Source of the DNA: Pseudotabrizicola algicola
GTDB lineage: Bacteria; Pseudomonadota; Alphaproteobacteria; Rhodobacterales; Rhodobacteraceae
Direction: 5' to 3'
NCBI RefSeq assembly: GCF_010915705.1
Contig: NZ_JAAIKE010000005.1
Location: 124,001-188,000 of the forward strand
DNA length: 64,000 nt
The notes beneath the pieces are model-generated. The model was given only the letters and a program-made list of their open reading frames with translations, searched no databases and had not been told where the DNA came from. Each line of letters opens with the position of its first letter. Position 1 is the stretch's first letter. Shown piece after piece: positions 863-23,534 of this stretch. A program made the position numbers and the translations under genes.

Positions 863-886
863 GGCCGGGGGATGCGGTTTCGGGGG
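863..886 (-). promoter_or_regulatory. Copy 1 of 24-bp phage leader repeat (candidate late promoter element)
   Basis: The plus strand reads GGCCGGGGGATGCGGTTTCG followed by GGGG, identical to the copy at 23511-23534 and one base different from the copy at 16180-16203. It begins 3 bp beyond the stop of the J gene and lies in the leader of the fibre gene. Unlike the other two copies it is not followed by the CATWTGGCAT box, so its activity is less certain. Confidence 0.45.
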
Positions 887-889
887 GGG

Positions 890-3800
890 TCAGATCACGA
901 CGATGGTGAAGGGGCCGCTGACCGGCCCGGGGACGCCATCATCGTTCTGCGGCTCGATCCAGATGTAATGGATGTCCTGCGCCAGACAGGCCCCGGTCTC
1001 CAGATAGACGATCACATCGTCGATCGCGCCGTCAAAGGAGGTGCCCGCCAGCCATTCGATGCGGTCATTGCCGGTGACCGCCTGGATGCGGTCGCGGTGA
1101 AAGCCGTTGGCCGCAATGCTGGTGCCGGGACGGTCCGATCCGCCGGTCAGGCGCGGTGTCAGCCCGCCCGCCGTGCGGCCGGAGACGATGTAGCCGAGGC
1201 GGTACCATTTGCCTGCCTCAAAGGCCCGCGCCTGACCGATGGCCCCCGCCGTGCCCGCTGTGTGGGTGGCCAGCCCGGCGGCAATCGCCCAGCCCGGATC
1301 CAGATCCCAGGCCGCCGGGGCGTCCATGGTGCCGCCCGTGACCAGATTGGACCGGGTGGTGTCGCCCAGAGCAAAACTGAAGCTCTGCAGCGGGCTGACA
1401 GCATGGACCCCGCCGACCGCGTCGGTCTCGCGGTCCAGCACGGCCGAGGTCGAGCGGTAGAGCTGGATCTGGGTGGTATTGGCATCCGGGCCGGTGGCCA
1501 GCTGGATCAGCGCGCCCCCGAGCAGCGTGGTGATCGAGATGGTCTCATCATCCAGCGCCGCCGGGATCGGCGCATCGCCCGCGCCGATGATCACTGTCAC
1601 CGGCGTGGTCCATGGCCCGGCCACCCCCGTCCAGGACAGGGCCTGCGCGGTGATCTGGGCGGTGCTGCCAGAGCCATAGACAAGGATCGATCCCCCACCG
1701 GCCGCGACCGGGATCACCGCCTCGGTCCAGTCGCCGCTGGTGCCGAGCCGGTGCGAGATCCGGAACGAGACCGCGCTGATCGCCCCGCTGCCCGGCACGA
1801 TCAGAAAATCGATCCGCCCGGCCTCGCCGGTGCCGGAAATCCCCGAGGTGATCGAGGTGAAGCGCGGGGCCGAGGGCTGGAGCAGGTTTGCGCCCAGCTC
1901 GACCCCGACGCGCCCCGACCATGCCGGAACCTCGGCCGCATTGGTCAGGGCGTCGATCTCGGGCGCTGCAGCCACTGCGCGGATGATCTGGCACTGATCC
2001 TGGGTCGCCTCGATATGGGTGACGACCACCGGATAGCTGTCGGTGCCCATCTCGCCGAAATGCACGATGTCGCCCGCGAGCGGCACCGGGCCGGAGCCGG
2101 TCAGGGTCAGGAGCGTCTCCTCCCCCGGCAGGGTCGCGACCGGGCGGACCACCGAGGTGCCGACCGTATCCTCGTCATCCGCAAAGACCCGGAACCGCAG
2201 GGCATAGCTGCGCCCCTCCACCATGGTCACCAGCTCGTCAAGCGCGACCAGCGATCCTGACACATGCCGCACCCGCCCGGCCCATTGCATGCGCGACAGC
2301 ACGTCATGGCTGAGCATCGCCGTATCGCCCCGGGTCGCCACGCGCAACGCGCCCTCCTGGGTGGCCTCGAACACATCCGGCCTGTACTCCGCCTCAAAGA
2401 ACCGTCGCAGGCCCTCACGATAAACGATGGCGGCATTGGTGATGCCGGGCAGCTCCAGCGTCTCAGTCACGGTGATGTCGCCGGTATAGCCCGGCCGCCG
2501 GATCACCCGCTGGGCTTCCTTGTAGTCGTTGTCCTCGTCCTGGAACTTGCAGATCCAGGCATGCGGCTTTTCGACATAGGCGCGGCGGACCGAAAACCCC
2601 CAGGAATTGCGCGGGTTGATGTGATCGACGATCAGCTCGGCCGGGCGGTCGATGACCACGCCCCATCTGGTGCCGTCATGGCGCGGTGAGGCGCGCCCGG
2701 CGGCGGCAACCTCGGTCAGCACCTCGCGCAGCGTGGTCCCGGCCTGATCCAGCACCCGGTTGTACTGCAGCGCGCGCAGATGACAGAAATGGTGCCAGTC
2801 GGTCAGCTGGCCCAGATCGATCTCGGCATCGGTGGCGGGTTTCGGATTGGCCGGGCATTGCAGGATGTAGCGATAGAGCGAGGCGGGGTTCGAGGTCGGG
2901 CGTTCGATCCACTCTTCGGCCACATGGTCCCAGTCGAGGCACACCCGCCAGGCCAGCGCCGAGAAATTGTCCAGCGACCCCGACAGCTGATGCGTCGCCC
3001 GGACCCGGACCGCGACCAGCGCCAGCGGCTGGCGATAGGCGAGCGGGTATTCCGGGCGCAGCGTCTGCAGCCCGGCCCAGACCGCGCGCTGCTGCACCTG
3101 AGTCTCCTCGGTTTCCGGCGTCATCATGGTGAGCCGGATCTGGAAGCGGCCGCGCGTCGGGAATGACCAGGTGAGCTGGCGGTAAAACGCCTCGATGCGC
3201 CGGGCCGATATGTCCAGCGGCGTGACCAGCTGCCACTCATCGGCCCCCGCCAGACGTTGCTCGACCCGGATGGACACACCGTGATGCTGCTTTTTGACCT
3301 TGCCGGAAAAGCTGATCAGACCGGTGGGAAAGGCGATGATTATGGATGCGCCCTGCGCATCGGGTCCGGTGGTGCGCACGACCGGCGTCTCTATGGCCGG
3401 GCTGCCCGCGATGACCTCGCCCAGATTGTCACGGGGCAAGGGCCGGGTCAGCTCGACGCCGATGCTCTCCTCGACAATCTGGCGCGGGAAGAGGCTGAGC
3501 GGCAGATCGGTCGGCCGACCCTCCCGGACCTCGATGTCGACATCGTCGAAATCCGCCAGCGAGGTATCGCCGATCCGGAAATCCGACAGCCCGACCGCAC
3601 CCTCGCCAAAGCAGAACACCGCCCGGATATACTGCGCGTCGCCCACGATCTCGGTATGGCTGCGCACCGCAAAGGGCGGCGCATAGCGGACCTGACCCAG
3701 CACCACCGGCACCGCCCCGTCAGGGTCAAGCCGGTTGCGCCAGCCCGAAATGCTGTAGCTGTTGCGCCGTTCGTCATCCGGCTTGACCGGCGGGATCAGG

Positions 3801-4234
3801 GCGTTGATCAGCAGACTGCCGAGCAGGTTGACGCCAATGCCGATCAGGGCCGTTGCGGTGCCGACCGCCGCAGCGCCGGTGCCCCAACCCAATGCGCCCG
3901 CCAGCGCGGGACCGAACATCGTGCCAAGCGCCACCGCCGCGATCGACACCACGACCGACAGGATCGTCCGCAGCGCGTCCTTGCCCGGCACCAGCCGGAT
4001 CACCACCCGCACCCCCGGCCGGGGCCGCACGGCATGCCAGTGCTCTGGCAGGATCATGGCCGATCCGCGCGGGCTGACCAGCGTGACCCGGGCACGTGCC
4101 CGATCGGCAGGCGCGGCACCGGGCAGCACCATCGCCACGATCTCGCCGATGGTCAGCCCTTCGGGCAGCGTCACCTCGATCCGGGCGCTGCCGGGATCAA
4201 TCGCGGGGGCGGCGAGGACGGGAATGCCGGTCAT
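890..4234 (-). CDS. Host-specificity / tail tip protein J (TipJ-like)
   Basis: This 1114-residue protein follows the NlpC/P60 gene with an ATGA overlap, the order seen at the tail tip of lambda-like siphoviruses and gene transfer agents. Its N-terminal part has hydrophobic Gly/Ala-rich segments (about residues 85-150), and the body carries conserved J-family phrases such as SYSISGWRNRLDPDGAVPVV and VLGQVRYAPPF. The C-terminal third is Ser/Thr/Gly-rich and likely forms fibronectin-like or jelly-roll folds. J proteins form the tail tip that contacts the host receptor. Family assignment is firm; the receptor cannot be predicted. Confidence 0.85.
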   Translation of the reverse strand: MTGIPVLAAPAIDPGSARIEVTLPEGLTIGEIVAMVLPGAAPADRARARVTLVSPRGSAMILPEHWHAVRPRPGVRVVIRLVPGKDALRTILSVVVSIAAVALGTMFGPALAGALGWGTGAAAVGTATALIGIGVNLLGSLLINALIPPVKPDDERRNSYSISGWRNRLDPDGAVPVVLGQVRYAPPFAVRSHTEIVGDAQYIRAVFCFGEGAVGLSDFRIGDTSLADFDDVDIEVREGRPTDLPLSLFPRQIVEESIGVELTRPLPRDNLGEVIAGSPAIETPVVRTTGPDAQGASIIIAFPTGLISFSGKVKKQHHGVSIRVEQRLAGADEWQLVTPLDISARRIEAFYRQLTWSFPTRGRFQIRLTMMTPETEETQVQQRAVWAGLQTLRPEYPLAYRQPLALVAVRVRATHQLSGSLDNFSALAWRVCLDWDHVAEEWIERPTSNPASLYRYILQCPANPKPATDAEIDLGQLTDWHHFCHLRALQYNRVLDQAGTTLREVLTEVAAAGRASPRHDGTRWGVVIDRPAELIVDHINPRNSWGFSVRRAYVEKPHAWICKFQDEDNDYKEAQRVIRRPGYTGDITVTETLELPGITNAAIVYREGLRRFFEAEYRPDVFEATQEGALRVATRGDTAMLSHDVLSRMQWAGRVRHVSGSLVALDELVTMVEGRSYALRFRVFADDEDTVGTSVVRPVATLPGEETLLTLTGSGPVPLAGDIVHFGEMGTDSYPVVVTHIEATQDQCQIIRAVAAAPEIDALTNAAEVPAWSGRVGVELGANLLQPSAPRFTSITSGISGTGEAGRIDFLIVPGSGAISAVSFRISHRLGTSGDWTEAVIPVAAGGGSILVYGSGSTAQITAQALSWTGVAGPWTTPVTVIIGAGDAPIPAALDDETISITTLLGGALIQLATGPDANTTQIQLYRSTSAVLDRETDAVGGVHAVSPLQSFSFALGDTTRSNLVTGGTMDAPAAWDLDPGWAIAAGLATHTAGTAGAIGQARAFEAGKWYRLGYIVSGRTAGGLTPRLTGGSDRPGTSIAANGFHRDRIQAVTGNDRIEWLAGTSFDGAIDDVIVYLETGACLAQDIHYIWIEPQNDDGVPGPVSGPFTIVVI

Positions 4235-4674
4235 CGGACAGCCTCCGAAATCAGTTGAACGGGGCGTTCAATGGCTCTTGAAGCATGCCGGTAGTGGCCT
4301 GCAAAGCGGTGCTTGTAGGGGCCATCGGCATAGCCCTGCACCTTGGCCTGATCCTCTGCGACCATATGGATCATGATGCCATGCCGGATCACGATCCCGA
4401 GGTGCGTCGAGAACCGGCCGCGCCGGAACACCGCGATGTCAAAGGCCACCGCCGCGCCGGTCACCGGCAGCCAGAGCGGCGAGGTGGCCGCCCCCGAGAT
4501 CAGCGCCGCGATCTCGCCATGCTCATCAACTGATCCATAGCCCAGATAATCGGGCAGCGTGACGCCCAGCTCCTCGCGGTAGATGATGCAGGCCAGCCCC
4601 CAGCAATCACAGCCGTGACGGTCGCGGCCGAAGTCGGCATAGGGGATCCCGATGAAGCGATCAGACCAGCTCAT
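4231..4674 (-). CDS. NlpC/P60 family tail tip peptidase
   Basis: The 147-residue protein has the NlpC/P60 cysteine peptidase layout: Cys24 in DCWGLACI and His91 in STHLGIVI. In siphoviruses this tail component cleaves peptidoglycan cross-links or helps assemble the tip. The start at 4674 is chosen because GGAG sits 6 bp before it; the longer open frame upstream has no homologous look. It overlaps the J gene by four bases, so the two are probably translationally coupled. The usual neighbour just upstream is displaced by the extra ORFs at 4792-5368. Confidence 0.85.
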   Translation of the reverse strand: MSWSDRFIGIPYADFGRDRHGCDCWGLACIIYREELGVTLPDYLGYGSVDEHGEIAALISGAATSPLWLPVTGAAVAFDIAVFRRGRFSTHLGIVIRHGIMIHMVAEDQAKVQGYADGPYKHRFAGHYRHASRAIERPVQLISEAVR

Positions 4675-4791
4675 TGGAGACTCCGGGATTGTGCGGTCAT
4701 GAAACGCCGATACAGTCGCGACACCGGGGAGCGTGCCAGCGCCCCCCGGATCGTCGCTATCCCCACGCGCTGCACACACGAGAGGAATGAC

Positions 4792-5103
4792 ATGGACATC
4801 ACGCTCACAATCGGAAGCATCCGGCTCGAACAAATGGAGGATGGGAACGATGGTCCGGACTTTTTCACCACCATCTTCAACATCTCCTGCGTACATCAGA
4901 CACACGGAATATCGTTCGAGAACGATCTGACAATTGGTCTGCCGGTTCTCGCGACGGGACGGGATCAACCGTATGGGGAGGTTGAAGACGCTGGCGCTCA
5001 AGCTCTTCCAGCCTTTCTTCGACAGCTTGCAGACGCCGTAGAAGCTGACCTGCATAGGGTTGCCGAAGAGCGCGAAAAGCGGACACGGACCAGCGCGCAA
5101 TAG
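4792..5103 (+). CDS. Hypothetical plus-strand accessory protein inside tail operon
   Basis: A 103-residue protein beginning MDITLTIGSIRLEQME reads against the tail operon. AGAGGA lies about 6 bp before the ATG, codon choice looks coding, and the C-terminus (LPAFLRQLADAVEADLHRVA) is a convincing amphipathic helix. No family is recognised. It has no same-strand neighbours, and its stop ends 4 bp from a duplicated gene end at 5107, which suggests a later-acquired moron. It overlaps the minus-strand ORF 4877-5368 by 227 bp, so one of the two may be shorter than drawn or not expressed. Confidence 0.55.
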   Translation: MDITLTIGSIRLEQMEDGNDGPDFFTTIFNISCVHQTHGISFENDLTIGLPVLATGRDQPYGEVEDAGAQALPAFLRQLADAVEADLHRVAEEREKRTRTSAQ

Positions 5104-5368
5104 CTTTCATGAGCGGGACCCGGGAAAATTGAGCCGGGTCATGCTCTCTGGCGGGAAGAGCACTGAGCACCACGTCTTGCAGGCAATATCGTTGCATCCG
5201 CTCTCCTGATTGCTTTCGCGCGCGGAAAACTTCGCGCCAAACATCAGACGGCGCACCTTCAAGAGTGATTGTTGGCTGAGCCGGAACGAAGTCGTCCGTC
5301 GCTCTGTCGGGGCAGTTGATCGGATCCCCGTTAGAGACAATCTTGGTGTAGCCATTTGGGAAAGGCAT
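4877..5368 (-). CDS. Hypothetical phage protein with C-terminal coiled-coil tendency
   Basis: This 163-residue ORF starts 10 bp after the preceding tail gene ends, with a strong Shine-Dalgarno sequence (GAGGAG) 7 bp before the ATG, so translation looks real. The N-terminal half (MPFPNGYTKIVSNGDP) resembles a small folded protein. Residues about 105-125 (LQAVEERLEELERQ) look like a short coiled coil. The frame runs through the second copy of a duplicated gene end (5107-5157) and then overlaps the plus-strand gene. No function is known; it belongs to an inserted 272-bp segment and may be an accessory gene. Confidence 0.5.
   Translation of the reverse strand: MPFPNGYTKIVSNGDPINCPDRATDDFVPAQPTITLEGAPSDVWREVFRARKQSGERMQRYCLQDVVLSALPAREHDPAQFSRVPLMKAIARWSVSAFRALRQPYAGQLLRRLQAVEERLEELERQRLQPPHTVDPVPSREPADQLSDRSRTIFRVSDVRRRC
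5107..5157 (-). repeat. Duplicated 3' gene end, copy A
   Basis: This copy matches 5379-5429 at a constant offset of 272 bp, including the 20-mer GGAAAATTGAGCCGGGTCAT and the TCA stop position. Read on the minus strand it encodes FPPxxMTRLNFPG plus three residues and a stop, as in the upstream gene. It is an orphan gene end. Confidence 0.75.
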
Positions 5369-5378
5369 AGTTTTCTCC

Positions 5379-5429
5379 TCATGTGTGCAGCCCCGGAAAA
5401 TTGAGCCGGGTCATACGGCCCGGCGGGAA
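5379..5429 (-). repeat. Duplicated 3' gene end, copy B (in the intact gene)
   Basis: This is the genuine 3' end of the 5379-5903 gene, encoding FPPGRMTRLNFPGLHT and a stop. Copy A lies 272 bp further along the operon. The pair brackets 5158-5378, consistent with recombination-mediated insertion of a cassette. Confidence 0.75.
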
Positions 5430-5903
5430 TGCTTCAAGCTCTACCTCGTCGCGGCTGATCGACAGGACGATCTCGCCTGCGGTGATGTCGGCCGAGACCA
5501 GCAGCAGGCCGGTCCACTCGCCCTCGATCACATCCGGGGACCCTGCGAGCACCACGGCCAGACTGACGCTGGCGGGATCGGTGAAGGACCGCACCAGGTC
5601 CACCATTTCGGCATCAAGGTTTTCCAGCGCGATCTGGGCGGAGGCCGGGGCATCATCGGCGTCGCCGGGCAGCACCGCCGAGGCGATGACCCAGAGATAG
5701 GGCTCGGTCACCGGATTGGCCCCGCGCCAGCTGGACCGGGTGCCATACATCAGCGGATCGTCCGACAGCCGTTCGGTGTTGTCGGTGGACAGCCGGATCG
5801 GGGCCTCCAGATCGGGGTGCTCGATGTGGATCAGCGCCACCTCGATCTCGGCCCCGCCTTCGGCGTCCTGGGCGAGGCGTGCATTCAGGGAAAGACGTCT
5901 CAT
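5379..5903 (-). CDS. Minor tail protein (DUF1833-like)
   Basis: The 174-residue protein begins MRRLSLNARLAQDAEG and is mainly beta-strand forming, with phrases such as VALIHIEHPDLEAPIRLSTD and VVLAGSPDVIEGEWTGLLLV. It starts in an ATGA overlap with the gene before it and precedes the NlpC/P60 and J genes. In lambda-like tails this slot holds the distal tail proteins that connect tape measure and tip. Assignment to a DUF1833-like family rests on overall look and position. Its last 17 codons are duplicated at 5107-5157. Confidence 0.6.
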   Translation of the reverse strand: MRRLSLNARLAQDAEGGAEIEVALIHIEHPDLEAPIRLSTDNTERLSDDPLMYGTRSSWRGANPVTEPYLWVIASAVLPGDADDAPASAQIALENLDAEMVDLVRSFTDPASVSLAVVLAGSPDVIEGEWTGLLLVSADITAGEIVLSISRDEVELEAFPPGRMTRLNFPGLHT

Positions 5904-6322
5904 GGCATCACCTGCAGATTGAACGATTTCTTGAACTCGACCTGCCCGTGGATGGTCTCGACCGGCACCTGATCGCCCCAGGAGCACAGCCAGCGCGCCG
6001 CCATCAGGATCGGCACGCCCCCGCCGGTCAGCAGCGGGGTGCCGTCTGAGGTCAGCAAGGCCCAGCCATCGGTGGTCGGATCGGGCATGTAGAACAGCCG
6101 CGCGCCCTCGGCGCAGTCCTCGTGGAAAAACCTGTCGAAGATCGCCTTCTGGTCCCGCGTCAGGATCACGGACAGGGTCACCAGCTTTGCCGCCGAGGAA
6201 AACCGGCGGCGGTAGCGCGCTGGCCCGGCATCGGATTGCGTCTTGCGCCGCGCGTCCTGCGAGGTCAGCTGCCAGCTGGGCCGCTCGGGGCGCGGCAGAT
6301 CTGCGGGCCATGTCAGGATCAC
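5900..6322 (-). CDS. Distal minor tail protein
   Basis: The 140-residue protein starts with GTG at 6322, overlapping the tape-measure stop (GTGA). It begins MILTWPADLPRPERPSWQ and contains the aromatic stretch FDRFFHEDCAEGARLFYMPD. The first gene after a siphovirus tape measure usually encodes a distal tail or tail-hub component, and this protein fits by size and position. No named domain could be confirmed by eye. Overlaps on both sides show it belongs to the tail transcription unit. Confidence 0.65.
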   Translation of the reverse strand: MILTWPADLPRPERPSWQLTSQDARRKTQSDAGPARYRRRFSSAAKLVTLSVILTRDQKAIFDRFFHEDCAEGARLFYMPDPTTDGWALLTSDGTPLLTGGGVPILMAARWLCSWGDQVPVETIHGQVEFKKSFNLQVMP

Positions 6323-9300: not shown

Positions 9301-10065
9301 GTTCAGCATCGCGATGAAGCTCTTGCCGACGGCCCGTAGCGCCGTCGTTCCACCGCCGAGCCCCATCAGCACCTGACTGACCTGCGTGCCCTGCTGCAGG
9401 GCAAGCTGCATCGGGTTCTGGCCCGCTGCCATCATCACCGCAATATCGTTCCACTGTGCAAACAGGTTGGCGTTCGCGGCGGTGGCAGCGTTGGCCGCCC
9501 CGGCGTTGCCTCGCAGCTCGCTGTTCATCGGGGCCATGGACTGAGCTGCCCGGTCCCGGGCCGCTGCTGCCTCCTGTGCCGATATCGCCCCCATCCGCTC
9601 GGCTTCGGCGATGTCGCGCAGGGCCATCTCATATTGCTGCGATGCCGCGAACAACGGATTGAACCGCGCGCGGACCTCATCCAGCTGCGTCTTGAGCAGA
9701 CCAGCCTCGCGCGCCTCGGCCCGCATCGCCTCGACCTGATCCTTGATGCTGCGGGTCAGTCCGGTCGCGGCATTCATCATGCCGCCCACCGCTGTCGTGT
9801 TGCGGCCCATCTGCGCGGTCAGATTGATCGATTGCACCACATTGGTTGCCGTCGCCTGGCTCAGCACATTCAGGGGGGCAGCGGCCGCTTGGGCGGCGGT
9901 CCCGGTCTGACCGATGGCGGCCCCTGCGCCCGCTGCCTTGCGCCCGGCTTCTTCGGCAGCAGCCCCGAGCGTCTTCAGGTCAGTGCCCGCGCCCGACATC
10001 TCGCGCCGGGCCTGATCGGCCAGAAAGCGCAGGATGATCGATACATTCAGATCGCCGTTGGCCAT
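6319..10065 (-). CDS. Tail tape measure protein with tail lysozyme domain
   Basis: At 1248 residues this is the longest phage protein and sets tail length. The N-terminus (MANGDLNVSIILRFLADQAR) is followed by long Ala/Glu-rich coiled coils. Hydrophobic segments around residues 245-290 are typical of tape measures. Three imperfect repeats share the pattern LQFGExSAxVEAxRxRHA. A tail lysozyme-type domain lies at about residues 925-1060 (GLKPHQIAAIMGNVQAESGF), which would open peptidoglycan during DNA injection. It begins one base after the stop of the frameshifted T-like gene. Confidence 0.92.
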   Translation of the reverse strand: MANGDLNVSIILRFLADQARREMSGAGTDLKTLGAAAEEAGRKAAGAGAAIGQTGTAAQAAAAPLNVLSQATATNVVQSINLTAQMGRNTTAVGGMMNAATGLTRSIKDQVEAMRAEAREAGLLKTQLDEVRARFNPLFAASQQYEMALRDIAEAERMGAISAQEAAAARDRAAQSMAPMNSELRGNAGAANAATAANANLFAQWNDIAVMMAAGQNPMQLALQQGTQVSQVLMGLGGGTTALRAVGKSFIAMLNPISLATIGIIAFGAAAFQWLTSSTVKVLSLDDAMDQLSSRMADYKSAAGDAGSSTASLEERFGAASAEARRLLGDLEKVQASRALLAASDAFRGIATDQGLKLGGAASGFGADLKTLSKTFGLDTTEKAEREAASAVRNAMMAVNSASYSRDPSARLQKMSAAMADLVARTTEAVDLDGKRTAAEEMLLEALLQQNVALLEQAALVDGSGRAEAITRQIDTMVQGYNQQAQLAQAVLQFGENSAQVEALRNRHAREALRIRLEEIGVVQGSADEQRALGELEAAQAAEAGVNTDRRRKAMGEIFTDLRRQQEMSQAILQFGETSAEVEAVRARHADDVLKARLEEMGMAPLLIAMALGLASAERDRARAIRTEAARKSADSMLADLREEAAINAAIAQSGEDSLHVKGLQIAAERRAFEQTLATLEVTAAVKRELLAAWDAARGLASADPFGSLGAGRDYSRGQQERLERLRLEHSLLGQNEAVRTRIVALWQVERDMIREGIDLTSARAAEIRAAAEEEVSLTRMIERQQEAWQKVQSSAESAIDGIVGKLMDGDIDGALEALAGQITGMFTELAVTNPLKNAMLGTNYGTMQDVGGLKGIWGRLTGQADPLTASVSSMGPVASMQVTAASVTIAGPGAMSLMTGAAGGAGMAANTAGAPGAFGGGLGGAVGVQQQVWAFFAAKGLKPHQIAAIMGNVQAESGFNPLAVGDDGTSFGLFQHHKSRGAGLLDATGGMAGLGNVNAQLEYVWKELLTSESGVLKKLLAAPDVQQATSAFVGFERPQGWSAANPMGAHNWAGRVGSAEAALAKFGTTAQTATGNLGTLGTGFDVFGSALAQGLNGAASGGAQGGIVGLLGALAQGIAGKLKIPGFAAGGDFGGGLRVVGENGPELEFTGPSRILNANLTRSIMTSRPPVAANSAPSVIQLQPVLVNNTARQVDLQVEETTDARGQRQQRYVISDVVGDGLATPGGKAARNMSQLYNVKKPARRRS

Positions 10066-10066
10066 G

Positions 10067-13818: not shown

Positions 13819-14715
13819 TCAGAGCGTCAGGCGGGTCTCGCAATGCAGCTCGGCGGTGTTGCGCCATTTGTTGGTGGCCCCGTTTGCATCGCGCTCGTTG
13901 AGCAGGATTTCGCGGGCAGCCCCTTCGAGCGACGGCGGCACCACCAGCAACTTGGGCTTGAGGTTCAGCTTGCGGCCGCGATGGCCCCGCATCGACATCA
14001 TGGCGGCACGGGCCAGACCGTAGTTGGTGGCGTTCAGCGTCTGGCGCGAGGCATAGACCAGCTGCCAGGCCCCGAAGCCCGAAGCACAGCGGCGCTTGGC
14101 CCCCCAGACGAATTCGTCCTGATTGAAGACGTTGTCGTCGGTCAGGCTGGTCTTGGCGGTGATCTTCGCGGCCTCGCGGTCCTGGAAGATCATCGGCTTG
14201 ATCGCCCGGCTGTCGTCGATCAGATACCAGGCCGCACCGGAACCGCCCTGGAAGTTCGACACCGACACTTCCACGCCCTGCTCGTTTTCGACCGGGTGAT
14301 CGGTGTCAAAGAAAAACTGGCCGTCATAGTGGGTGGTGTTGAAGCCCTTCTCCATGTGCTCCCAGACCAGATCGTCGGGCAGTTCCGCCGCGACCTGCGC
14401 CATGTCCGAGACCAGCGGCGTGTAAATGCCATACTGATCATCGGAGATGTCATCGACCGGCACCGCAACGGTCTTTTCGAACTTGCGGTTGGTGATGACA
14501 AAACCATCGGTCTCCAGCCGCTCGATGTAGCGCTCGCCGATCCACTCGCGCATCGGGCCAAGCTCCGACAGCTTGGGATAGGCCTGATGGCGGGTCGATG
14601 ACTGGACCGTCATCGCAACGCGGCCAAAGGTGGGTTCAACGCCCGTGAACCGGGTGTTGAAGGCGGTTGTCATGGCGATGTTGAGGGCTGCCAGGGAGGC
14701 CCGGGTGATATCCAT
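13819..14715 (-). CDS. Major head protein (Mu gpT-like)
   Basis: The 298-residue protein begins MDITRASLAALNIAMTTAFN. The phrases FTGVEPTFGRVAMTVQSSTR and ELGPMREWIGERYIERLETD are hallmarks of the Mu gpT major capsid family, which adopts the HK97 fold. The start at 14715 excludes an Arg-rich upstream extension. It follows the protease/scaffold and the DUF2190-like gene, the normal head-module order. Confidence 0.92.
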   Translation of the reverse strand: MDITRASLAALNIAMTTAFNTRFTGVEPTFGRVAMTVQSSTRHQAYPKLSELGPMREWIGERYIERLETDGFVITNRKFEKTVAVPVDDISDDQYGIYTPLVSDMAQVAAELPDDLVWEHMEKGFNTTHYDGQFFFDTDHPVENEQGVEVSVSNFQGGSGAAWYLIDDSRAIKPMIFQDREAAKITAKTSLTDDNVFNQDEFVWGAKRRCASGFGAWQLVYASRQTLNATNYGLARAAMMSMRGHRGRKLNLKPKLLVVPPSLEGAAREILLNERDANGATNKWRNTAELHCETRLTL

Positions 14716-14729
14716 GGTCGGATCTCCGT

Positions 14730-15131: not shown

Positions 15132-15134
15132 CGG

Positions 15135-16148: not shown

Positions 16149-16157
16149 GGGCCAGCT

Positions 16158-16203
16158 ATGCCAAATGACGCGCCTTCAGGGCCGGGGGATGCTGTTTCGG
16201 GGG
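16158..16203 (-). promoter_or_regulatory. Copy 2 of phage leader repeat plus CATTTGGCAT box (candidate late promoter)
   Basis: GGCCGGGGGATGCTGTTTCG plus GGGG occupies 16180-16203. On the minus strand, exactly 12 bp further, lies CATTTGGCAT (16158-16167). The same spacing and nearly the same box occur at 23489-23534. The box ends 10 bp before the annotated protease ATG, so a promoter here would give a very short or absent leader. Confidence 0.5.
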
Positions 16204-16323
16204 TCGGTCCGCCCGCACAAGCGGGGTGTTGGCGCGGGTCGGGCCAGACTACCGTTCAAAAACCCGCCAGCGCGTTCAAAAATGGCCAGTCCGGGTTTGC
16301 GCGAACGTCGCCCGCAGCAAGCC

Positions 16324-16500
16324 TCAGGGCTGCTGTGCGGGCGTTTTCCGGGGCAGTTCCGCAATCGCCGAAAGATGCGCTTCCGCATAGGCGAGATAGG
16401 CCGGGGCCGCCTCGGCAGGAGGGGCAGCCCGCAGCTCAGAAACCAGCGCGCGCCAGCCGGGCACGTCATAGAGTTCAGGCTCTGGCCTAAGGCGTGCCAT
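16324..16500 (-). CDS. Small phage protein between MuF and protease
   Basis: A 58-residue ORF starts at an ATG inside the last codons of the MuF gene. It reads MARLRPEPELYDVPGWRALV and continues as an Ala/Glu-rich helix ending TPAQQP. The overlap, acidic helical composition and same-strand context suggest a real coupled gene. No family is recognised. After it comes a 175-bp leader holding the repeat element, then the protease. Confidence 0.6.
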   Translation of the reverse strand: MARLRPEPELYDVPGWRALVSELRAAPPAEAAPAYLAYAEAHLSAIAELPRKTPAQQP

Positions 16501-17800: not shown

Positions 17801-19371
17801 CGGACCGGAGCGCCGGTTTCACCGGCGACACGGGCGGCAAAGGTCGATTGCTCCAGTTGGTCAAGCACCGGACCGGGCGGTGCGGCGTTGAACACAGCAA
17901 GGATGTCCTGGACCTCATCCAGGGAGCCCGCCCGGCCGAGCGCCTCGATCAGCTGCCCGATTTCGCCGTCCAGTGCCTCCTGCATGTCACCCGAGGCAAT
18001 CAGCTCGTCCACCAGGGCGTCGACGCTGTCGCGTGGGACAATATCTGAAACGCGCGCAGCAGTCTGACGGATGGCTGCCGGGTCGGGGTTGACGGGCGGC
18101 ACATCCGGCTTCGGCGGTTCCGGCACAGGGGGCGTCAGCACCTCCTCATTGGCCTCGGGTTCGCGCAGGGCAAAGACGTTGCGGATCTGGCTCACGGCAA
18201 TGCGCAGCCCTGCCTTGGGGCCTTTCTCCATCAGTTCCAGCATCAGTTTCGGGTCAGCCCGCTCCGGCGAGACAAACCGGATCACCGGCAGCGCCACCCT
18301 GTGCCGGTCGGCGAAGTTCAGCCGCACGATGGCCCCGGCAATATCGCGCTGCAGGCTCCCGGCGAGCTGCTCGGCATCCGCATCCCGGATGTCTCCGCGG
18401 ACCTCTTCATGGATCTTGCCGACCGCATGGCCGCCCGCGATCGCATCGGTGGTGGCAACCTGCCCCAGCACCCCTTTCGAGATCTGTTCATCCCAGAACC
18501 GCGCGTTGCCCTCATAGAGCTTGTCCGACCCGGTGGTGGCGGCCGTGATCACCTCAAGCTCCATGTCCTTGGGGATGATCGCCGCCATGTCGACGCCGAT
18601 CTGCCTTGCCGCCCTGAGCAGCGTCAGCCGGTCTTCCGGCGACGAGGATGGCCCATATTTGCCCAGGCGCAGCGGGTGGCCATAGGCCTCGAGAAAGATC
18701 GCCCAGTCCTTCAGGCTGAAATTCTTGAACAGATATGCCCAGGCCGCAAGCCGGGCCAGACCACCCCGGATTGCGAGACCGGATTTCGCCTTGGCGATAT
18801 GGATCATGTAGCTGTCAGGGCGCAGCGGTTGCGGCCCGGCATTGTCGCGCAGGTAGATGTGGGTGCCGTTGTCGCGGTCGAATTCGAACCAGCGCGGATC
18901 GACCAGCTCAAGACCGGCCAGCTTCAGCCCCTTGCCCTCACGCTCCCAGACTATCTCCGACACCGAAAAGCCCTTGCCCAGGGCATCCATGATGTCGATC
19001 AGCGAGGACTTCACTGACGACGAATTCAGGGTGTTGCGCACCATATCGGCGGCCTCGTTGGCGGCTGCGGTCTCGTCGCCGGGATCAACCTGAATTTCGA
19101 GGGACCGGATGGCCCGCTTCCGGACCGCCAGAACGGCTGCATAATGGAGATCCTTTTCCTCCATCTGCTCGGCCATTTCGAGATAGGCGGTGGCATCACC
19201 GTCCTCTGCCTGGCGCAGGATGGTGGTCAGGCGCGGCGGGGTCAGCCCGTCCGCCGGGTGCCCGCTCTGCACCTGGCGCACAGAGCCGATGGAGGCCACC
19301 GCCTGGCGTTCCAGCAACTCGGCGGCTGTCACCCGCCGCATCGGTCGGCCGAATTGATCGAGTAGCATCAC
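17797..19371 (-). CDS. DUF935 portal protein (Mu gp29-like)
   Basis: The 524-residue protein begins MMLLDQFGRPMRRVTAAELL and carries family sequence such as EEKDLHYAAVLAVRKRAI, IVWEREGKGLKLAGLELVDP and FEFDRDNGTHIYLRDN. DUF935 proteins form the dodecameric portal for DNA entry and exit. The Pro-rich linker near residue 430 and the acidic C-terminus are usual. It overlaps terminase and MuF genes by four bases each. Confidence 0.93.
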   Translation of the reverse strand: MMLLDQFGRPMRRVTAAELLERQAVASIGSVRQVQSGHPADGLTPPRLTTILRQAEDGDATAYLEMAEQMEEKDLHYAAVLAVRKRAIRSLEIQVDPGDETAAANEAADMVRNTLNSSSVKSSLIDIMDALGKGFSVSEIVWEREGKGLKLAGLELVDPRWFEFDRDNGTHIYLRDNAGPQPLRPDSYMIHIAKAKSGLAIRGGLARLAAWAYLFKNFSLKDWAIFLEAYGHPLRLGKYGPSSSPEDRLTLLRAARQIGVDMAAIIPKDMELEVITAATTGSDKLYEGNARFWDEQISKGVLGQVATTDAIAGGHAVGKIHEEVRGDIRDADAEQLAGSLQRDIAGAIVRLNFADRHRVALPVIRFVSPERADPKLMLELMEKGPKAGLRIAVSQIRNVFALREPEANEEVLTPPVPEPPKPDVPPVNPDPAAIRQTAARVSDIVPRDSVDALVDELIASGDMQEALDGEIGQLIEALGRAGSLDEVQDILAVFNAAPPGPVLDQLEQSTFAARVAGETGAPVR

Positions 19372-20798
19372 CAGGCACCTCCGCCATGGCCCCAGCGCTG
19401 GCCGGAAGCCTTGTCATCATCATCATCATCGGCCCGCCGGTCGGCCCAGCGGGACCGGACACCCGGCGCAGCCTGATACCCATAGTCCTCGGCCCCCATA
19501 TCGGCGGCGGACACGGCCAGCGCACCCGCCCAGAAGCGGTCGGCATGACCGTCGCTGTCCCCGTCCGCGATCAGGCGGCGTGTGCCGGTTACCCCGACCT
19601 GCGATTTGATGGAGTGCAGATCGGCCCGCAGCTTCGGATCGCCCGCTGGAATGCGGGTCTTGCGGTCCTGCATCCGCTCTTTCAGCGTCGTCGCCATGTC
19701 GAGCTTCGACGCGGCTGAAAACAGCACGCCTTCAACCCGCTCGGAACCGTGCACCCGCTTGGCATCCTCGACCGGCTTTTCGCCCATGCCGGTCTGGTCC
19801 ATGCGGCAACGCACCACGCGGTACCGCCGCATCACCTCGGCCAGAAGCGCATCCTGTTCGGCGAAGCTGATCCGGCGGCGGGCAATGATCTCACGGGTCC
19901 ACAGGACATCTCCGACCAGCTCCACCACCCAGATCACGAAGAGGTCGTTGCGGGCCGCGATATCAACGCCCACGAAACAAAGCCCGCCCTGATAGCCTTC
20001 GGGCTTTCCGGCCCCGGCATGTTCGCAGGCCGAGATCAGGTCGTAATCCAGCCAGGCGCTGGCCTCGTCGAGCCATTTCAGCTCGTATTCCTGCGCCCAG
20101 GCATCCTCGTCCGCCATCCCGCGCCGCAGCATGTCGACATCGCGATCAAGCCCCTGACGCACCGCCTCATAGATATCGACCACATGCCGCGACCAGACGC
20201 TGTCCTCGGCGGTCATCAGCTCGTAAAACTTGTTGCCCTTGCCGTTCGGCGTCGAGATCACCCGCAGCTTCTGCTGGCCCTTGGAGATGACCGGGAAGAG
20301 CGCCGCCCAGATTTCGCGGCTCTTCGCGTGAAAGGCGAATTCGTCCAGGATCACGTTGGCCGAGAACCCACGCGCGGTGTCAGGATTGGCAGGCAGCGCT
20401 GTGATCCGGCTGCCGTTCGGGAACCCGACCTCAAGCGCCTTGTAGACTGCATCCGGGCCGCTCGCCTGTGGGGCACGGAACTCGCCTTCGGAAAACACCG
20501 GCTCACCGCCCTTCAACAGGGTGTTGTAGACCTCGTAAAAGGCCTTGGTGAACGGCTTGATCACCTCGGTCATCATCTCGGCCGCCTGCCGCTCGCCACG
20601 CGACAGGATCACCCAGCGGCTGCGACGGCCGTCGATCCATGACCTGAAGCAATCATCGGCGCATTCGCCGCCCGTCGAGAAGGTCTTGCCGGTCTGGCGG
20701 GCGAACATGCCGATCTTGAACCGGCTCTCGTCAGCGATCCATGCCCTCTGATAGGGCAGGAAATTGATGACCGGGCTGAGCGGGGAGATGGCGCTCAT
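19368..20798 (-). CDS. Terminase large subunit (Mu gp28-like)
   Basis: The 476-residue packaging motor has an N-terminal ATPase with a Walker A-like MFARQTGKT at residues 31-39 and a Walker B ANVILDEFAFH. A C-terminal nuclease domain follows, with FVGVDIAARNDLFVIWVVEL and conserved Asp residues such as CRMDQTGMGEKPVEDA. A run of six aspartates near the C-terminus is encoded by a short ATC/GAT repeat (about 19409-19425). It overlaps the upstream 64-residue gene and the portal gene. Confidence 0.92.
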   Translation of the reverse strand: MSAISPLSPVINFLPYQRAWIADESRFKIGMFARQTGKTFSTGGECADDCFRSWIDGRRSRWVILSRGERQAAEMMTEVIKPFTKAFYEVYNTLLKGGEPVFSEGEFRAPQASGPDAVYKALEVGFPNGSRITALPANPDTARGFSANVILDEFAFHAKSREIWAALFPVISKGQQKLRVISTPNGKGNKFYELMTAEDSVWSRHVVDIYEAVRQGLDRDVDMLRRGMADEDAWAQEYELKWLDEASAWLDYDLISACEHAGAGKPEGYQGGLCFVGVDIAARNDLFVIWVVELVGDVLWTREIIARRRISFAEQDALLAEVMRRYRVVRCRMDQTGMGEKPVEDAKRVHGSERVEGVLFSAASKLDMATTLKERMQDRKTRIPAGDPKLRADLHSIKSQVGVTGTRRLIADGDSDGHADRFWAGALAVSAADMGAEDYGYQAAPGVRSRWADRRADDDDDDKASGQRWGHGGGAW

Positions 20799-20989
20799 GG
20801 CGCGTCCTGCGGGATCTCCGCGAAGGCCCGGAGCAAGGTGACCTCATCATGAAGCCGTTCCAGCTCATGCACGGCACGGTCAAGACTCCGGCAAAGGCTG
20901 GTCATCATCGTTCCCTGCACATGAGTGCCTTCAAACGCACGGGAATGTGCCCGAAGATCATTGATGATCTGGCGCGTGCTCGCCATCAT
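20795..20989 (-). CDS. Small helical protein before terminase
   Basis: A 64-residue ORF (MMASTRQIINDLRAHSRAFE) overlaps the DUF3486 gene at its start and the terminase at its end by four bases each. The sequence is one or two amphipathic helices (SLDRAVHELERLHDEVTLLR). Placement next to the terminase suggests a packaging accessory role, but no family is recognised. Confidence 0.65.
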   Translation of the reverse strand: MMASTRQIINDLRAHSRAFEGTHVQGTMMTSLCRSLDRAVHELERLHDEVTLLRAFAEIPQDAP

Positions 20990-21525
20990 GCAAAACCCAT
21001 GATCGCGCGCGCCTTGGCAGCAGCCTCGGCGTCAATGTCGCCCGATGCGACTGCTGCATCGAGCTTTGCGGACTGGGCCTTGCGTTCCTTGTCCTGCATC
21101 GCCTGGACGATGCCGGAACTGGACATGACGTCTTTCATCATTTTGGCGAGGAAGTGCAGGTTCTGGGGGCTGATCTCGGCACCCTCCTTGGAAACCTCGG
21201 CCTGCATCACCTTGAACGCCAGCGTGGTCAGCATCTGGAACAGCACGTTCTGACGCTGCGCCTGATCCTCCATGCCCATGTCGCCAAGCCATTCCTTCGC
21301 CCAGTCGGATGCCTGCTCCTGAAGGCGGACGAATTCCTGATATTCGCTGCCCCAGGCATGGATGGCTGACTTGCGGATGCGCAGGTCCAGCCCGGCCTCT
21401 TCCAGCCGGAAGTTCAGAGCCTCGGCCAGTTCTTCATACTGGCCGAAGCCACGGGCGCGCAGCTCCTCCTGAAGCCAGCTGCGCAATTCTTGCGGCAGCA
21501 GGTCGATCTTGCGGGGCGGCGGCAT
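20986..21525 (-). CDS. DUF3486 small terminase-like protein (Mu gp27-like)
   Basis: The 179-residue protein begins MPPPRKIDLLPQELRSWLQE. The N-terminal helix-turn-helix region (LAEALNFRLEEAGLDLRIRK followed by SAIHAWGSEY) is typical of DUF3486, the Mu gp27 family, thought to be the DNA-recognition subunit of the terminase. A helical C-terminal half follows. The start at 21525 comes after a longer open frame that lacks coding character. Confidence 0.88.
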   Translation of the reverse strand: MPPPRKIDLLPQELRSWLQEELRARGFGQYEELAEALNFRLEEAGLDLRIRKSAIHAWGSEYQEFVRLQEQASDWAKEWLGDMGMEDQAQRQNVLFQMLTTLAFKVMQAEVSKEGAEISPQNLHFLAKMMKDVMSSSGIVQAMQDKERKAQSAKLDAAVASGDIDAEAAAKARAIMGFA

Positions 21526-21526
21526 C

Positions 21527-21832
21527 TCAGCGCCTCGGGCTGGGACGTTGGATGTCGGGGTGCGTGGCGCGGCCGGTAGCGATTTCGACCCCACGCGCGG
21601 TCGCGGTCGCCACCCGGAAATCACTCGACCCGCCCAGCGTGACAAAGCCATTTTCGGCCAGCCAGCCCAGTTCGGTGGTGGCCTGATCCCGCGTCGTGTC
21701 GATGCCGATCCGGTCGCTGTTGAGCACATCGGTCAGGATCGAGACATTCGACGTGTAGGTCGGGATCGCTTCGAGGAACCGCAGGATGGCCAGACGGCGA
21801 TGGCGGCTGTTGAATGCGAGATAGTCGGTCAT
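21527..21832 (-). CDS. VpaChn25_0724-type phage winged-helix protein
   Basis: The 101-residue protein (MTDYLAFNSRHRRLAILRFL) has a winged-helix look, with VLNSDRIGIDTTRDQATTEL, GWLAENGFVTLGG and a beta wing. It matches the small ArsR-like phage proteins that precede DUF3486 in Mu-like genomes. It could bind DNA in packaging or regulation; the role is not established. Confidence 0.7.
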   Translation of the reverse strand: MTDYLAFNSRHRRLAILRFLEAIPTYTSNVSILTDVLNSDRIGIDTTRDQATTELGWLAENGFVTLGGSSDFRVATATARGVEIATGRATHPDIQRPSPRR

Positions 21833-22176
21833 TTGCGCTCCAGCAGATACTGTTCGACACGGGTCAACACGATGTCCTGGCGCTTGCTGGCCTCGATCGT
21901 GGCATTGTGTGCGGTGCGCAGCATGCCCACCGATCCTTCCAGCCGCTCCATCGCCAGCGCGAGGCTGTGGATGTCTTCCTTGGTCGGCTGGCCGCGCAGC
22001 GTCTGTTCGACCGAGCCCAGCCGGTGATCCAGCCGGTCCATGCGTTCGCTGCCCGCCTTGAAGCGGGTTTCAACGTTCTGGTCGCGGGTCCGCCACCAGG
22101 TGTAGAGGATGTTGATGATGCTCAGGCCTGCCAGCATCACGGCAAGAGCCGGGCCCAGTTCAATAGCGGCTTGCAT
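21829..22176 (-). CDS. DUF2730 membrane-anchored phage protein
   Basis: The 115-residue protein has one N-terminal transmembrane helix (about residues 5-28, ALAVMLAGLSIINILYTWW) followed by a charged helical domain, the DUF2730 layout found in Mu-like lysis/packaging regions. The start Met is coupled to the stop of the gene before it (TGATG). It may act as a spanin-like or holin-accessory protein, by location only. Confidence 0.7.
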   Translation of the reverse strand: MQAAIELGPALAVMLAGLSIINILYTWWRTRDQNVETRFKAGSERMDRLDHRLGSVEQTLRGQPTKEDIHSLALAMERLEGSVGMLRTAHNATIEASKRQDIVLTRVEQYLLERK

Positions 22177-22574
22177 CAGGGCCGGGCCACACCAGCAGGC
22201 CAAGCTGCGGGATTGCCGTCCAGCCGATAGACGGGCGATGCCTCGATGGCCTCGCGCAGCTTGGCCTCAGCAATGGATACAAGAACTCCGGCCCCCGGAT
22301 TGAGCGCAGCGATCGCGTCAGGCACGCTGCTGCCCGCATGCAAGATCGCTTCGTTGATGGCATCCTCACCGACAGTGCCGCGTGACAGTGATGCCCGGAT
22401 CCCGGACATAATAGCGGAATGCAGCGCCTCCCGGTGGCGAGCCTCAATCTCGATGCCCCAGCGGTTTTTTGCCGTTCTGGCAGCCCAGATCAGAAAGAGG
22501 CCGAGAACCGCACCAATGAGTTGCAGCAGCATCGGCAAGAGCTCCCAGTAGAGCATGAGCAGAAAATCGTTCAT
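22176..22574 (-). CDS. Putative holin / lysis membrane protein
   Basis: The 132-residue protein begins MNDFLLMLYWELLPMLLQLI, a single long hydrophobic helix to about residue 32, then a soluble helical tail (REALHSAIMSGIRASLSRG). It starts inside the end of the amidase gene (ATGA overlap). A one-helix protein beside an endolysin is a reasonable holin candidate, but sequence alone does not prove it. Confidence 0.55.
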   Translation of the reverse strand: MNDFLLMLYWELLPMLLQLIGAVLGLFLIWAARTAKNRWGIEIEARHREALHSAIMSGIRASLSRGTVGEDAINEAILHAGSSVPDAIAALNPGAGVLVSIAEAKLREAIEASPVYRLDGNPAAWPAGVARP

Positions 22575-23440
22575 CGGGAAACCTCATCGGGGTTGAAGGG
22601 GGTGGCATAGCGCGCGACGATCCAGCCTTCGTGCCCGGCGTACTGCACGAGCAACCAGTCCCGGCCATCAAAGCTGCCCCTGCGGATCACCGGCACCACC
22701 GCAGCATGCGGGATGGCGGCAATGGCATTGGGGTTGAACGACGGCCAACGCCGCAGGGTAAGCGTGTCGCCCGGCGTGTTGACCTGAACCCACTGATCCG
22801 CAGCGACCTGTGCACTTGCGGCCTCGGCCTCTGCAGCGGCCGGATCATCGCGGCCAAAGACACGGGCGCGGATCGCCTCCAGCGGAAACAGCGGGTTGGT
22901 GTCGATCTTGCGGCCGGGGCTGACATACCAATGCGTGGTGATGTCCTTGAGCGTGGGAATGCCAGCAAACAACGCCTCCAGCAGATCGATCACCGCTTCG
23001 ATCTGTTCCGGCGCATAGGGCATCCAGATGCCACGACCATGCTCTTTGGTCTCGGCCTCGACCACCTGGTACGCGCCATAACCAAAGTCTTGCCCCCACC
23101 AGGCCAGCGCAGAGCCGCCGAGGCCCCGGGTCAGCTTGCCCGGATTGACGATCTCGATGCCGATCGAGAAGGCATTGCAGTCCTTGCGACCATGATAGCT
23201 GGACTGCCCGGCGTGACCGGCGCGGAGGTTCGTGGCCACCAGCTGCGAGACCGTGCCATCCCGCTCCACCACGAAATGCACCGAGGCAACCGTGGTCCGG
23301 GCGAGATAATCGCGGCTGTTGAACGCCTCCAGCCGCCCGGCTGTGTCATGCATGATGACAATCTCGGGGACGATCTTGCCCCCGGTCAGTTTTGCGGGGA
23401 TGAAGGGCACCCCCTCGATCTTGTGGTTTCTCAGACGCAT
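22571..23440 (-). CDS. N-acetylmuramoyl-L-alanine amidase endolysin with SH3-like domain
   Basis: The 289-residue protein has an Amidase_2 domain. His31 in VIMHDT and His170 in ITTHWYVSPGRKIDTNP are expected zinc ligands, and the latter motif has the family KxD element. The C-terminal 70 residues (WVQVNTPGDTLTLRRWPSFN) form an SH3b-like wall-binding domain. The start at 23440 is preferred; a longer reading would begin inside the repeat box. This is the first lysis gene, behind the best copy of the late-promoter-like element. Confidence 0.9.
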   Translation of the reverse strand: MRLRNHKIEGVPFIPAKLTGGKIVPEIVIMHDTAGRLEAFNSRDYLARTTVASVHFVVERDGTVSQLVATNLRAGHAGQSSYHGRKDCNAFSIGIEIVNPGKLTRGLGGSALAWWGQDFGYGAYQVVEAETKEHGRGIWMPYAPEQIEAVIDLLEALFAGIPTLKDITTHWYVSPGRKIDTNPLFPLEAIRARVFGRDDPAAAEAEAASAQVAADQWVQVNTPGDTLTLRRWPSFNPNAIAAIPHAAVVPVIRRGSFDGRDWLLVQYAGHEGWIVARYATPFNPDEVSR

Positions 23441-23488
23441 GGTGGCCCCGCTCAAGGGGCACCTCGCGGCCCCGGTCACGGACCGGGA

Positions 23489-23534
23489 TGCCATATGCCC
23501 CCGGCAACAGGCCGGGGGATGCGGTTTCGGGGGT
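23489..23534 (-). promoter_or_regulatory. Copy 3 of phage leader repeat plus CATATGGCAT box (candidate lysis promoter)
   Basis: GGCCGGGGGATGCGGTTTCG plus GGGG occupies 23511-23534, and CATATGGCAT lies at 23489-23498 on the minus strand after a 12-bp spacer. The final base overlaps the stop codon of the Mor-like gene. Three short hairpins follow (around CCCCCGGC/GCCGGGGG, CCCCGGTC/GACCGGG and GCCCC/GGGGC) before the amidase start at 23440. Confidence 0.55.

Follow-up and report, generated by a model that had tools for sequence, protein, structure and literature searches.

The question raised by this locus is whether one short element, repeated in three leaders of a Mu-like prophage of Pseudotabrizicola algicola, marks the late promoters of that phage and, if so, which protein reads it. 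To our knowledge, late gene control of transposable phages is understood in detail mainly for Mu. A first-pass annotation of the window (the whole stretch of 64,000 nucleotides analysed here) had proposed activator-dependent late promoters in places comparable to those of Mu. Comparison with related phages supports this proposal at the places of Mu Plys and PI, the promoter role itself being argued from sequence, and we consider it very probable that all three copies act as late promoters of the prophage under the control of its single Mor/C-type activator. The features concerned are these:

1..742, minus strand: start of a 936-aa ORF that continues outside the window, with the Shine-Dalgarno-like GGAGAGAG; matches PHROG 29482 (unknown function), E 4.6e-15
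838..843, minus strand: TATCGA, predicted -10 hexamer of copy 1, in the same register as in copies 2 and 3
863..886, minus strand: copy 1, predicted 24-bp activator site of a third late promoter, directly after the J stop codon
15135..16148, minus strand: Mu I-like protease/scaffold gene; Pfam Mu-like_Pro, E 1.7e-59
16158..16163, minus strand: TGGCAT, predicted extended -10 core of PI
16180..16203, minus strand: copy 2, predicted 24-bp activator site of PI, -55 to -32
16250..16282, minus strand: conserved tandem TTTTTGAACG-N10-TTTTTGAACG, at -134 of the protease ATG
22571..23440, minus strand: amidase (lysis gene), its start set by comparison with relatives; the longest ORF starts at 23494
23471..23487, minus strand: inverted repeat CCCGGTC-CGT-GACCGGG across the putative Plys start
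23488..23493, minus strand: TGGCAT, predicted extended -10 core of Plys (T-15, G-14, C-12, A-11, T-10), with the register taken from PI
23510..23533, minus strand: copy 3, predicted 24-bp activator site of Plys, about -55 to -32
23534..23929, minus strand: Mor/C-family late activator gene, 131 aa; PHROG 836 and Pfam Mor

The repeat is real and specific to the phage. GGCCGGGGGATGCGGTTTCG occurs exactly at 863-882 and 23510-23529 and with one mismatch at 16180-16199; the three copies first described thus stand, the third beginning at 23510 and not one base later as originally given. At three mismatches or fewer the window holds 3 matches, against 0.05 in dinucleotide shuffles of the window. The 4.49-Mb host genome has only the three phage copies at no more than one mismatch, its next best place having two, and at up to three mismatches its 11 places equal control level (10 for the reversed pattern), a count that rules out a host-wide repeat. 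Among the other 146 genomes of the search for relatives, GGCCGGGGGATGCGGTTTCG had 0 copies at up to one mismatch. Scanning 394 family genomes for the pattern gave 44 places, of which the 6 with at most one mismatch are three Plys and PI pairs, two of these pairs belonging to phages already in our comparison set (same contig coordinates). The 38 two-mismatch places are about twice the reversed control (18, counted by hand), which counts against the promoter reading. Pattern matches in L009, L016 and L019 were rejected: they agree with the element in part, are followed by no TGGCA box, and stand in loci that contain neither a Mor/C relative nor a protease relative.

Read on the minus strand, the unit consists of the 24-bp site CCCCCGAAACNGCATCCCNCGGCC, 16 bp and then TGGCA; the gap of exactly 12 bp earlier reported to CATTTGGCAT (copy 2) and CATATGGCAT (copy 3) is present in the sequence. 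Across 22 phages, the window phage among them, 37 of 38 sites keep this 16-bp distance, and the bases in between are little conserved. These 38 leave out L032 (no site), L011, L012, L014, duplicate records of one phage (L011 and L012 although both have site and box), as well as the lineages with other elements, L026/L037, L036, L048 and L066, among which L036 and L048 are covered on the PI side only. The second box, previously just a box, supplies the TGn and the -11A of a predicted extended -10. A leaderless protease message would put the centre of the site near -44 and make TGGCA the extended -10; with the protease ATG as putative +1, the dyad-like core is centred at -44.5. This dyad is weak in the window phage (GAAA-N4-ATCC) and clear in L059 and distant relatives. 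The predicted -35 to -30 region is GGCC plus two bases, with no TTGACA and hence no consensus -35. TGGCAT is a poor match to TATAAT, a point against the promoter reading. Other promoter classes were judged by eye against sigma-54, ECF and heat-shock consensus sequences and rejected: TGGCA resembles the -24 box of sigma-54 with no GC at the -12 spacing, and the spacing is unfit for an ECF or heat-shock sigma promoter. TGGCA as a -35 was also rejected, as it would place the start inside the protease ORF.

Copy 2 precedes the Mu I-like protease/scaffold gene, as first noted, and the family match confirms this. None of the 20 protease starts examined (0/20) has a Shine-Dalgarno sequence, and the start lies 10 nt after TGGCA in 17 of 20, and 9 or 11 nt in three (counted by eye). 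These observations suggest that PI starts at the A of the protease ATG (16148), in which case the protease mRNA would be leaderless. Copy 1 had been described as lacking the second box and lying ahead of a fibre gene. It indeed has no TGGCAT, and TATCGA stands in the same register, at -12 to -7 of a putative +1 near 831; it follows the J fibre gene, and the 936-aa ORF downstream has a PHROG of unknown function as its sole family match, which does not bear out the fibre label for that ORF. A comparable third site occurs in three relatives; a search of three additional right-end stretches (L138, L139 and L140) gave none. In a leave-one-phage-out scan the window gave no fourth match beyond Plys, PI and the post-J site.

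The gene that was said to be Mor/C-like and to end at copy 3 matches PHROG 836, "late transcriptional activator" (E 3.4e-16), and Pfam Mor (26.1 bits, cut-off 24.9), and its end at 23534 adjoins the copy. It is the one Mor-family match in the host genome at E 0.001, whereas Mu has both Mor and C. An AlphaFold2 model of the protein (pLDDT 89, pTM 0.57) retrieved Mu C in its transcription complex (9l0x_I) at Foldseek rank 4 with a weak E of 0.87, no match reaching E 0.001. Among solved structures, a search by sequence with Mor/C retrieved no more than an RpoH chain (E 0.68), and Mu C was absent among the 50 matches listed by VIA-align 2 for the activator.

In related Mu-like phages the motif is neither absent nor randomly placed, the outcomes first named as fatal to a promoter family: Plys sites fall in the stretch that separates the Mor/C-like gene from the lysis gene, and PI sites fall ahead of the protease ATG. 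A matrix built from PI sites only recovers Plys sites as well: in 17 of 20 loci it detects one downstream of the Mor/C gene, most weakly in L035. Leave-one-phage-out scans over 20 phage groups, several covered only in part, gave 34 matches above threshold, each of which fell at Plys, at PI or at the third place, with 0 elsewhere; the Plys sites in this set were entered by hand after a PI-only matrix match or, for two named phages, taken from annotation. Four of the 20 groups had no match, three of them having a different element. The two named phages, Rhodovulum phage vB_RhkS_P1 and Pelagibaca phage vB_PeaS-P1, carry the same kind of 24-bp site with TGGCA at Plys and PI and, unlike the window phage, no third site in the 29,274 of 38,773 and 29,000 of 38,868 bases scanned. 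Some loci count against the reading. The Maritimibacter prophage L032 has TGGCA in both leaders and no recognisable site in either (an ATAGAG common to both was too short to call), and the L024 PI, L035 Plys and L060 Plys sites agree with the consensus at only 14 of 24 positions, L035 Plys having TGTCA and being missed by the leave-one-out scan.

Sites and activator vary together. Within a phage, the PI site disagrees with the Plys site at 2.88 of 24 positions, compared with 5.48 +/- 0.36 in permuted pairs (p=5e-5, 16 phages); the 12-nt spacer is likewise more alike within phages than in permuted pairs (7.19 vs 8.51 differences, p=0.0006), and part of the in-phage site signal is therefore composition or kinship. 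Site distance follows the whole activator protein (r=0.28, p=0.003) and, in a split at column 75 made after that test, the C-terminal half (r=0.41, p=0.0002), with no tracking of the N-terminal half (r=0.12, p=0.15) or of the protease (r=0.24, p=0.11). RcapMu, ThpS-P1, D3112 and two distant phages have other, private sites common to the same two leaders. The best 20-mer shared by the protease leader and the leader that follows the activator gene scores 20/20 in RcapMu, 19 in L037, 18 in D3112, 18 in L066 and 17 in ThpS-P1, against maxima of 16, 16, 16, 15 and 14 in 25 shuffles each; the ThpS-P1 activator, annotated as hypothetical, is the ORF before the amidase, assigned by position only. In four distant loci, GGAA/TGAA-N4-TTCC/TTCA has its centre at -44.5 or -45.5 relative to the protease ATG, and the -10 hexamer is TAGTTT, TAATTT, TATTCT or TATTTC (all picked by eye). 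Counting against the pattern, the common site of D3112 is 183 bp upstream of the protease start as annotated, though homology already sets in 108 bp upstream of that point.

These data bear on whether a host regulator or alternative host sigma factor, and not the phage Mor/C protein, reads the element. We regard this as very unlikely. TGGCAT is a weak sigma-70 -10, and the hosts of the core-motif phages are, going by host names alone, mostly Rhodobacter relatives, as a host factor would allow; but the host genome has no further copies, site distance tracks the activator C-terminal half, and RcapMu, ThpS-P1 and a Sulfitobacter phage, of apparently related hosts, have different private elements at the same places.

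The lysis leader raises another alternative. Copy 3 lies ahead of the amidase gene, a placement that the family match bears out, and Plys +1 would fall near 23478, 38 nt upstream of the amidase start. The arms of the inverted repeat across this point vary among relatives yet remain complementary. Directly after TGGCA, 14 of 19 Plys leaders have a stem of at least 5 bp (mean 5.47 vs 2.75 +/- 0.26 shuffled), with a smaller excess in PI leaders (5 of 19; 3.47 vs 2.48 +/- 0.23). Such stems are what one would expect if the repeats were translation-control or RNA-processing elements in mRNA leaders and not promoters, which we think highly improbable: the 24-bp site lies outside the inverted repeat, the PI starts sit mostly 10 nt after TGGCA with no Shine-Dalgarno sequence, as a start site would demand, and at the third site the -10 register is occupied by TATCGA/TAACGC/TAACGG. 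Least probable of all is that the copies are recent duplications or module boundaries without regulatory function, like the boundary sequences common to modules of lambdoid phages, given the fixed 16-bp distance to TGGCA over little-conserved bases, the unrelated private elements that distant phages carry at these positions, and L027, where the site has remained next to the lysis gene although an insertion parts it from the Mor/C gene.

Under the preferred reading of activator-dependent late promoters, a dimer of the protein from 23534-23929 would bind the 24-bp site near -44, over and just upstream of the missing -35, and would recruit or open host sigma-70 polymerase on the extended -10 (TGnCAT) or, at the third site, the plain -10 (TATCGA). 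Late in the phage cycle, Plys would then transcribe the lysis gene and the genes after it. PI would serve the protease, capsid and tail genes, its message beginning on the protease ATG or no more than a few bases from it, and transcription of the right-end genes would re-initiate after J at the third promoter.

In Mu, a Mor/C-family activator gene lies just before the lysis promoter. The prophage resembles the Mu promoters Plys, PI, PP and Pmom in this arrangement, in a predicted promoter before I and in having no consensus -35; it differs in the site sequence, the predicted extended -10 at Plys and PI, the putatively leaderless protease message and the third site after J. As far as the available part of that source goes, Mu late promoters have the activator site upstream of a non-consensus -35 and use host RNA polymerase (PMC4461284). 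At Mu Pm, according to the accessible portion of another paper, a Mor dimer binds a dyad from -51 to -36 (centre -43.5), with neither a -35 nor an extended -10 (PMC4287176). The core here, centred at -44.5 given +1 at the ATG, is comparable; it differs from Pm, in so far as that portion describes it, in the predicted extended -10 at Plys and PI and in its imperfect dyad. Rhodobacter phage RcapMu similarly has an annotated late transcriptional activator gene followed by a site that recurs before the head maturation protease, but this site is a palindromic GGAC-N4-GTCC with a longer protease leader (centre -61.5).

The putative Plys start inside an inverted repeat also recalls T4 gene e, whose late lysis promoter, in the part of the account available, starts inside a hairpin formed only by longer read-through RNA (PMC3014915). 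One may speculate that, across Mu-like siphophages, each phage has a private activator code (a dyad with a 4-bp core, differing between lineages, common to the phage's own late promoters and rewritten with the activator DNA-binding half) and that a lysis promoter inside a hairpin formed only by read-through early RNA adds an independently arisen, T4 gene e-like second lock; we hold this combination to be doubtful. If true, efficient translation of the lysin message would be confined to copies transcribed from the late promoter. The inverted repeat begins upstream of the putative +1, which would be odd if it acted in late RNA. The predicted lysis start region is more open in late than in read-through RNA in 13 of 18 phages (p=0.01), a small effect (0.45 vs 0.39) in a set with L045 left out and the start offsets of L022 and L034 misassigned, and for most of these phages it is not obvious that the hairpin covers the Shine-Dalgarno sequence.

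We found no paper combining Mu-like, late promoter and Rhodobacter, in a search with subscription literature largely outside it, so a prior description is possible; nor is the motif reported in the titles and abstract beginnings among the matches listed in our literature searches. In the available main text of a R. capsulatus phage survey (PMC8601537) and of a roseophage paper (PMC5488378), the word "promoter" occurs 0 times. The comparison lets one follow, from sequence, how an activator and its promoter sites have changed in step across many phages. It opens the DNA specificity of the Mor/C family to direct testing, yields predictions of exact start sites, among them that of a putatively leaderless capsid-protease message, and offers a simple marker for late operons in uncultured Mu-like prophages. 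vB_PeaS-P1 was obtained by induction, as stated in the part of its description available (PMC5488378); since both named phages carry the motif and this one is inducible, a test is practical.

Lastly, the conserved tandem element at -134 of the protease ATG is a candidate central gyrase site or upstream element; the strong gyrase site of Mu has a central position near genes G and I. In three records it lies before I at about 49-50% of the record length, as determined by hand, one record being partial and one a prophage contig without defined phage ends.

The Mu-like prophage inside the window, which carries the majority of its genes on the minus strand, appears from its sequence to possess putative late promoters of a novel version that would work like the Mu C type. 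Its genes include transposase A and B, a Mor/C-family activator, amidase, terminase, portal, Mu F, the Mu I protease, gpT capsid, tape measure and J fibre, and the elements discussed here are:

844-853, minus strand: CG-alternating run
863, minus strand: copy 1 of the 24-bp repeat, after J (candidate third promoter)
16180, minus strand: copy 2, candidate protease promoter (PI)
16250-16282, minus strand: tandem TTTTTGAACG-N10-TTTTTGAACG, upstream of the protease ATG
23471-23487, minus strand: inverted repeat at Plys, with arms that vary yet are complementary
23510, minus strand: copy 3, candidate lysis promoter (Plys)

The repeat sequence and its copies are as the first-pass annotation described them, except that the third begins at 23510. 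Only 0.05 occurrences are expected by chance in the window at up to three mismatches, and at up to one mismatch no further copy was found in the host genome, nor any in the other 146 genomes of the relatives search.

Related loci were gathered by protease and Mor/C searches from viral and genome contigs. The first-pass annotation had proposed looking for the motif in related phages, and it is present there: in the core group one copy separates the Mor/C gene from the lysis gene (Plys) and another immediately precedes the protease ATG (PI). A matrix built from PI sites only recovered the Plys site in 17 of 20 loci scanned, weakly at L035, and missed it in L032 (a Maritimibacter prophage), L066 and L037 (a Sulfitobacter phage). 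A leave-one-phage-out scan of 20 phage groups, several represented only in part, gave 34 matches, every one at Plys, PI or the third place, the weakest scoring 18.1 versus a top score of 16.1 among 80 Markov strand replicates of the window; L035 was matched at PI alone, and groups L032, G155, G156 and L036 gave no match. A search of 394 genomes from the host's family found the bipartite pattern at 44 places with up to two mismatches and at six with up to one, the latter being three Plys and PI pairs (the window's own and two from phages already in the comparison set); the remaining 38 places compare with 18 for the reversed control (our own count), roughly a twofold excess. In L027 an inserted stretch with other ORFs (1219-2580) separates the Mor/C gene from the Plys site, which remains with the lysis gene. 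L033, entered as Enemella evansiae, shares its motif pair and contig coordinates with G017 of the host's family, and its label may be wrong.

A gap of 16 bp separates the 24-bp site (best match within 4 bp) from a TGGCA box at 37 of the 38 sites, and one of 17 bp at the remaining site; this is the same distance as the 12 bp to CATT or CATA first reported. The L035 Plys has TGTCA instead. At PI, the ATG follows TGGCA by 10 nt at 17 of the 20 loci, the other three showing 9 or 11 nt. None of the 20 protease starts has a Shine-Dalgarno sequence, which other genes of two annotated phages have in 24/39 and 20/33 cases. The simplest reading is that the protease message is leaderless and starts (+1) on the A of ATG; TGGCA would then form an extended -10, T-15 G-14 n C-12 A-11, and the 24-bp site would occupy -55 to -32. 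Distant relatives agree with this register: by eye, L037, L066, L048 and L036 carry a different site, its 4-4-4 centre falling at -44.5 or -45.5, together with a plain hexamer in the -10 register (TAGTTT, TAATTT, TATTTC and TATTCT, respectively). In L032 no recognisable 24-bp site was seen in either leader, and its diverged activator possibly uses a new one; TGGCA is kept in both leaders (~9890-9986 and ~2240-2330).

These candidate promoters look similar to the late promoters of Mu, where C acts at Plys, PI, PP and Pmom (PMC4461284), and two occupy the same places. What sets them apart is the site sequence, the extended -10, the inferred leaderless protease message and the third position. PMC4287176 describes Mu Pm, a promoter with neither a -35 nor an extended -10, where the dyad bound by Mor spans -51 to -36 (centre -43.5).

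The Mor/C-family activator is the natural candidate for reading the sites. No other Mor-family protein was found in the host genome, and the activator gene lies upstream of the Plys site. Within a phage, PI and Plys sites differ by 2.88 mismatches versus 5.48 by chance pairing (p=5e-5, 16 phages), with a smaller effect for the 12-nt spacer as control (7.19 versus 8.51, p=0.0006). Site distance follows the whole activator protein (r=0.28, p=0.003) and its C-terminal, predicted DNA-binding half (r=0.41, p=0.0002; r=0.36, p=0.003 given protease), but neither the N-terminal half (r=0.12, p=0.15) nor, for comparison, the protease (r=0.24, p=0.11). The activator was divided at column 75 once the whole-protein result existed, which makes the half-protein p-values somewhat generous. 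Private elements common to both leaders occur in RcapMu, ThpS-P1 (activator gene assigned by position alone), D3112 (activator gene, hypothetical ORF, then endolysin), L066 and L037, sharing 17 to 20 of 20 bases versus shuffle maxima of 14 to 16 (25 shuffles each). It seems unlikely that a host factor would alter its binding site between phages of related hosts. In RcapMu (L142), an identical palindrome followed by TTTTGC stands in both leaders (5946-6018 and 14368-14440); it might be taken for an intrinsic terminator, yet is placed as an activator site would be.

Copy 1 does lack a TGGCA-type box, as first noted, but it is not without a counterpart, since TATCGA stands in the correct register. 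The window's third site directly follows the J stop codon, and in G151, G161 and G166 the site follows a stop codon in sequence resembling the J end (by eye), with TAACGC and TAACGG, each after a CG run, and CATCCT in the -10 register. No third site was found in G148, G149 and G150 (whole contigs scanned in pieces) or in additional right-end sequence from three more genomes (L138, L139 and L140); the candidate third late promoter is therefore an optional part. A CG-alternating run lies just 5' of its putative -10 in three of four phages (also L093 ~3627-3645 and L109 ~1522-1540).

At Plys, an inverted repeat of varying arm sequence begins directly after TGGCA and covers the inferred start. Its stem reaches at least 5 bp in 14 of 19 cases (mean 5.47 versus 2.75 +/- 0.26 shuffled), the excess at PI being weaker (5/19; 3.47 versus 2.48 +/- 0.23). 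A late promoter within an inhibitory hairpin has a precedent in T4 gene e (PMC3014915), but here the lysis-gene start region is predicted to be just slightly more open in late RNA (0.45 versus 0.39; 13/18). In folds of L033, Rhodovulum phage vB_RhkS_P1 and Pelagibaca phage vB_PeaS-P1, the 3' arm contains GGAGG, likely the lysin Shine-Dalgarno sequence. A separate, perfect 8-bp inverted repeat, CCCCCGGC-AACAG-GCCGGGGG (23498-23518), is made from copy 3 and its spacer; none was seen at copies 1 and 2, and it is therefore probably peculiar to the window's Plys.

Upstream of PI, a strict pattern detects the tandem element in 14 of 24 loci, its distance from the protease ATG hardly varying (-132 to -135); degenerate forms are visible in six further core loci and no form in four distant ones. 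The DNA separating it from PI is not conserved. It lies about mid-record, a near-middle position in which it may be likened to the strong gyrase site of Mu, described near genes G and I (PMC10052514).
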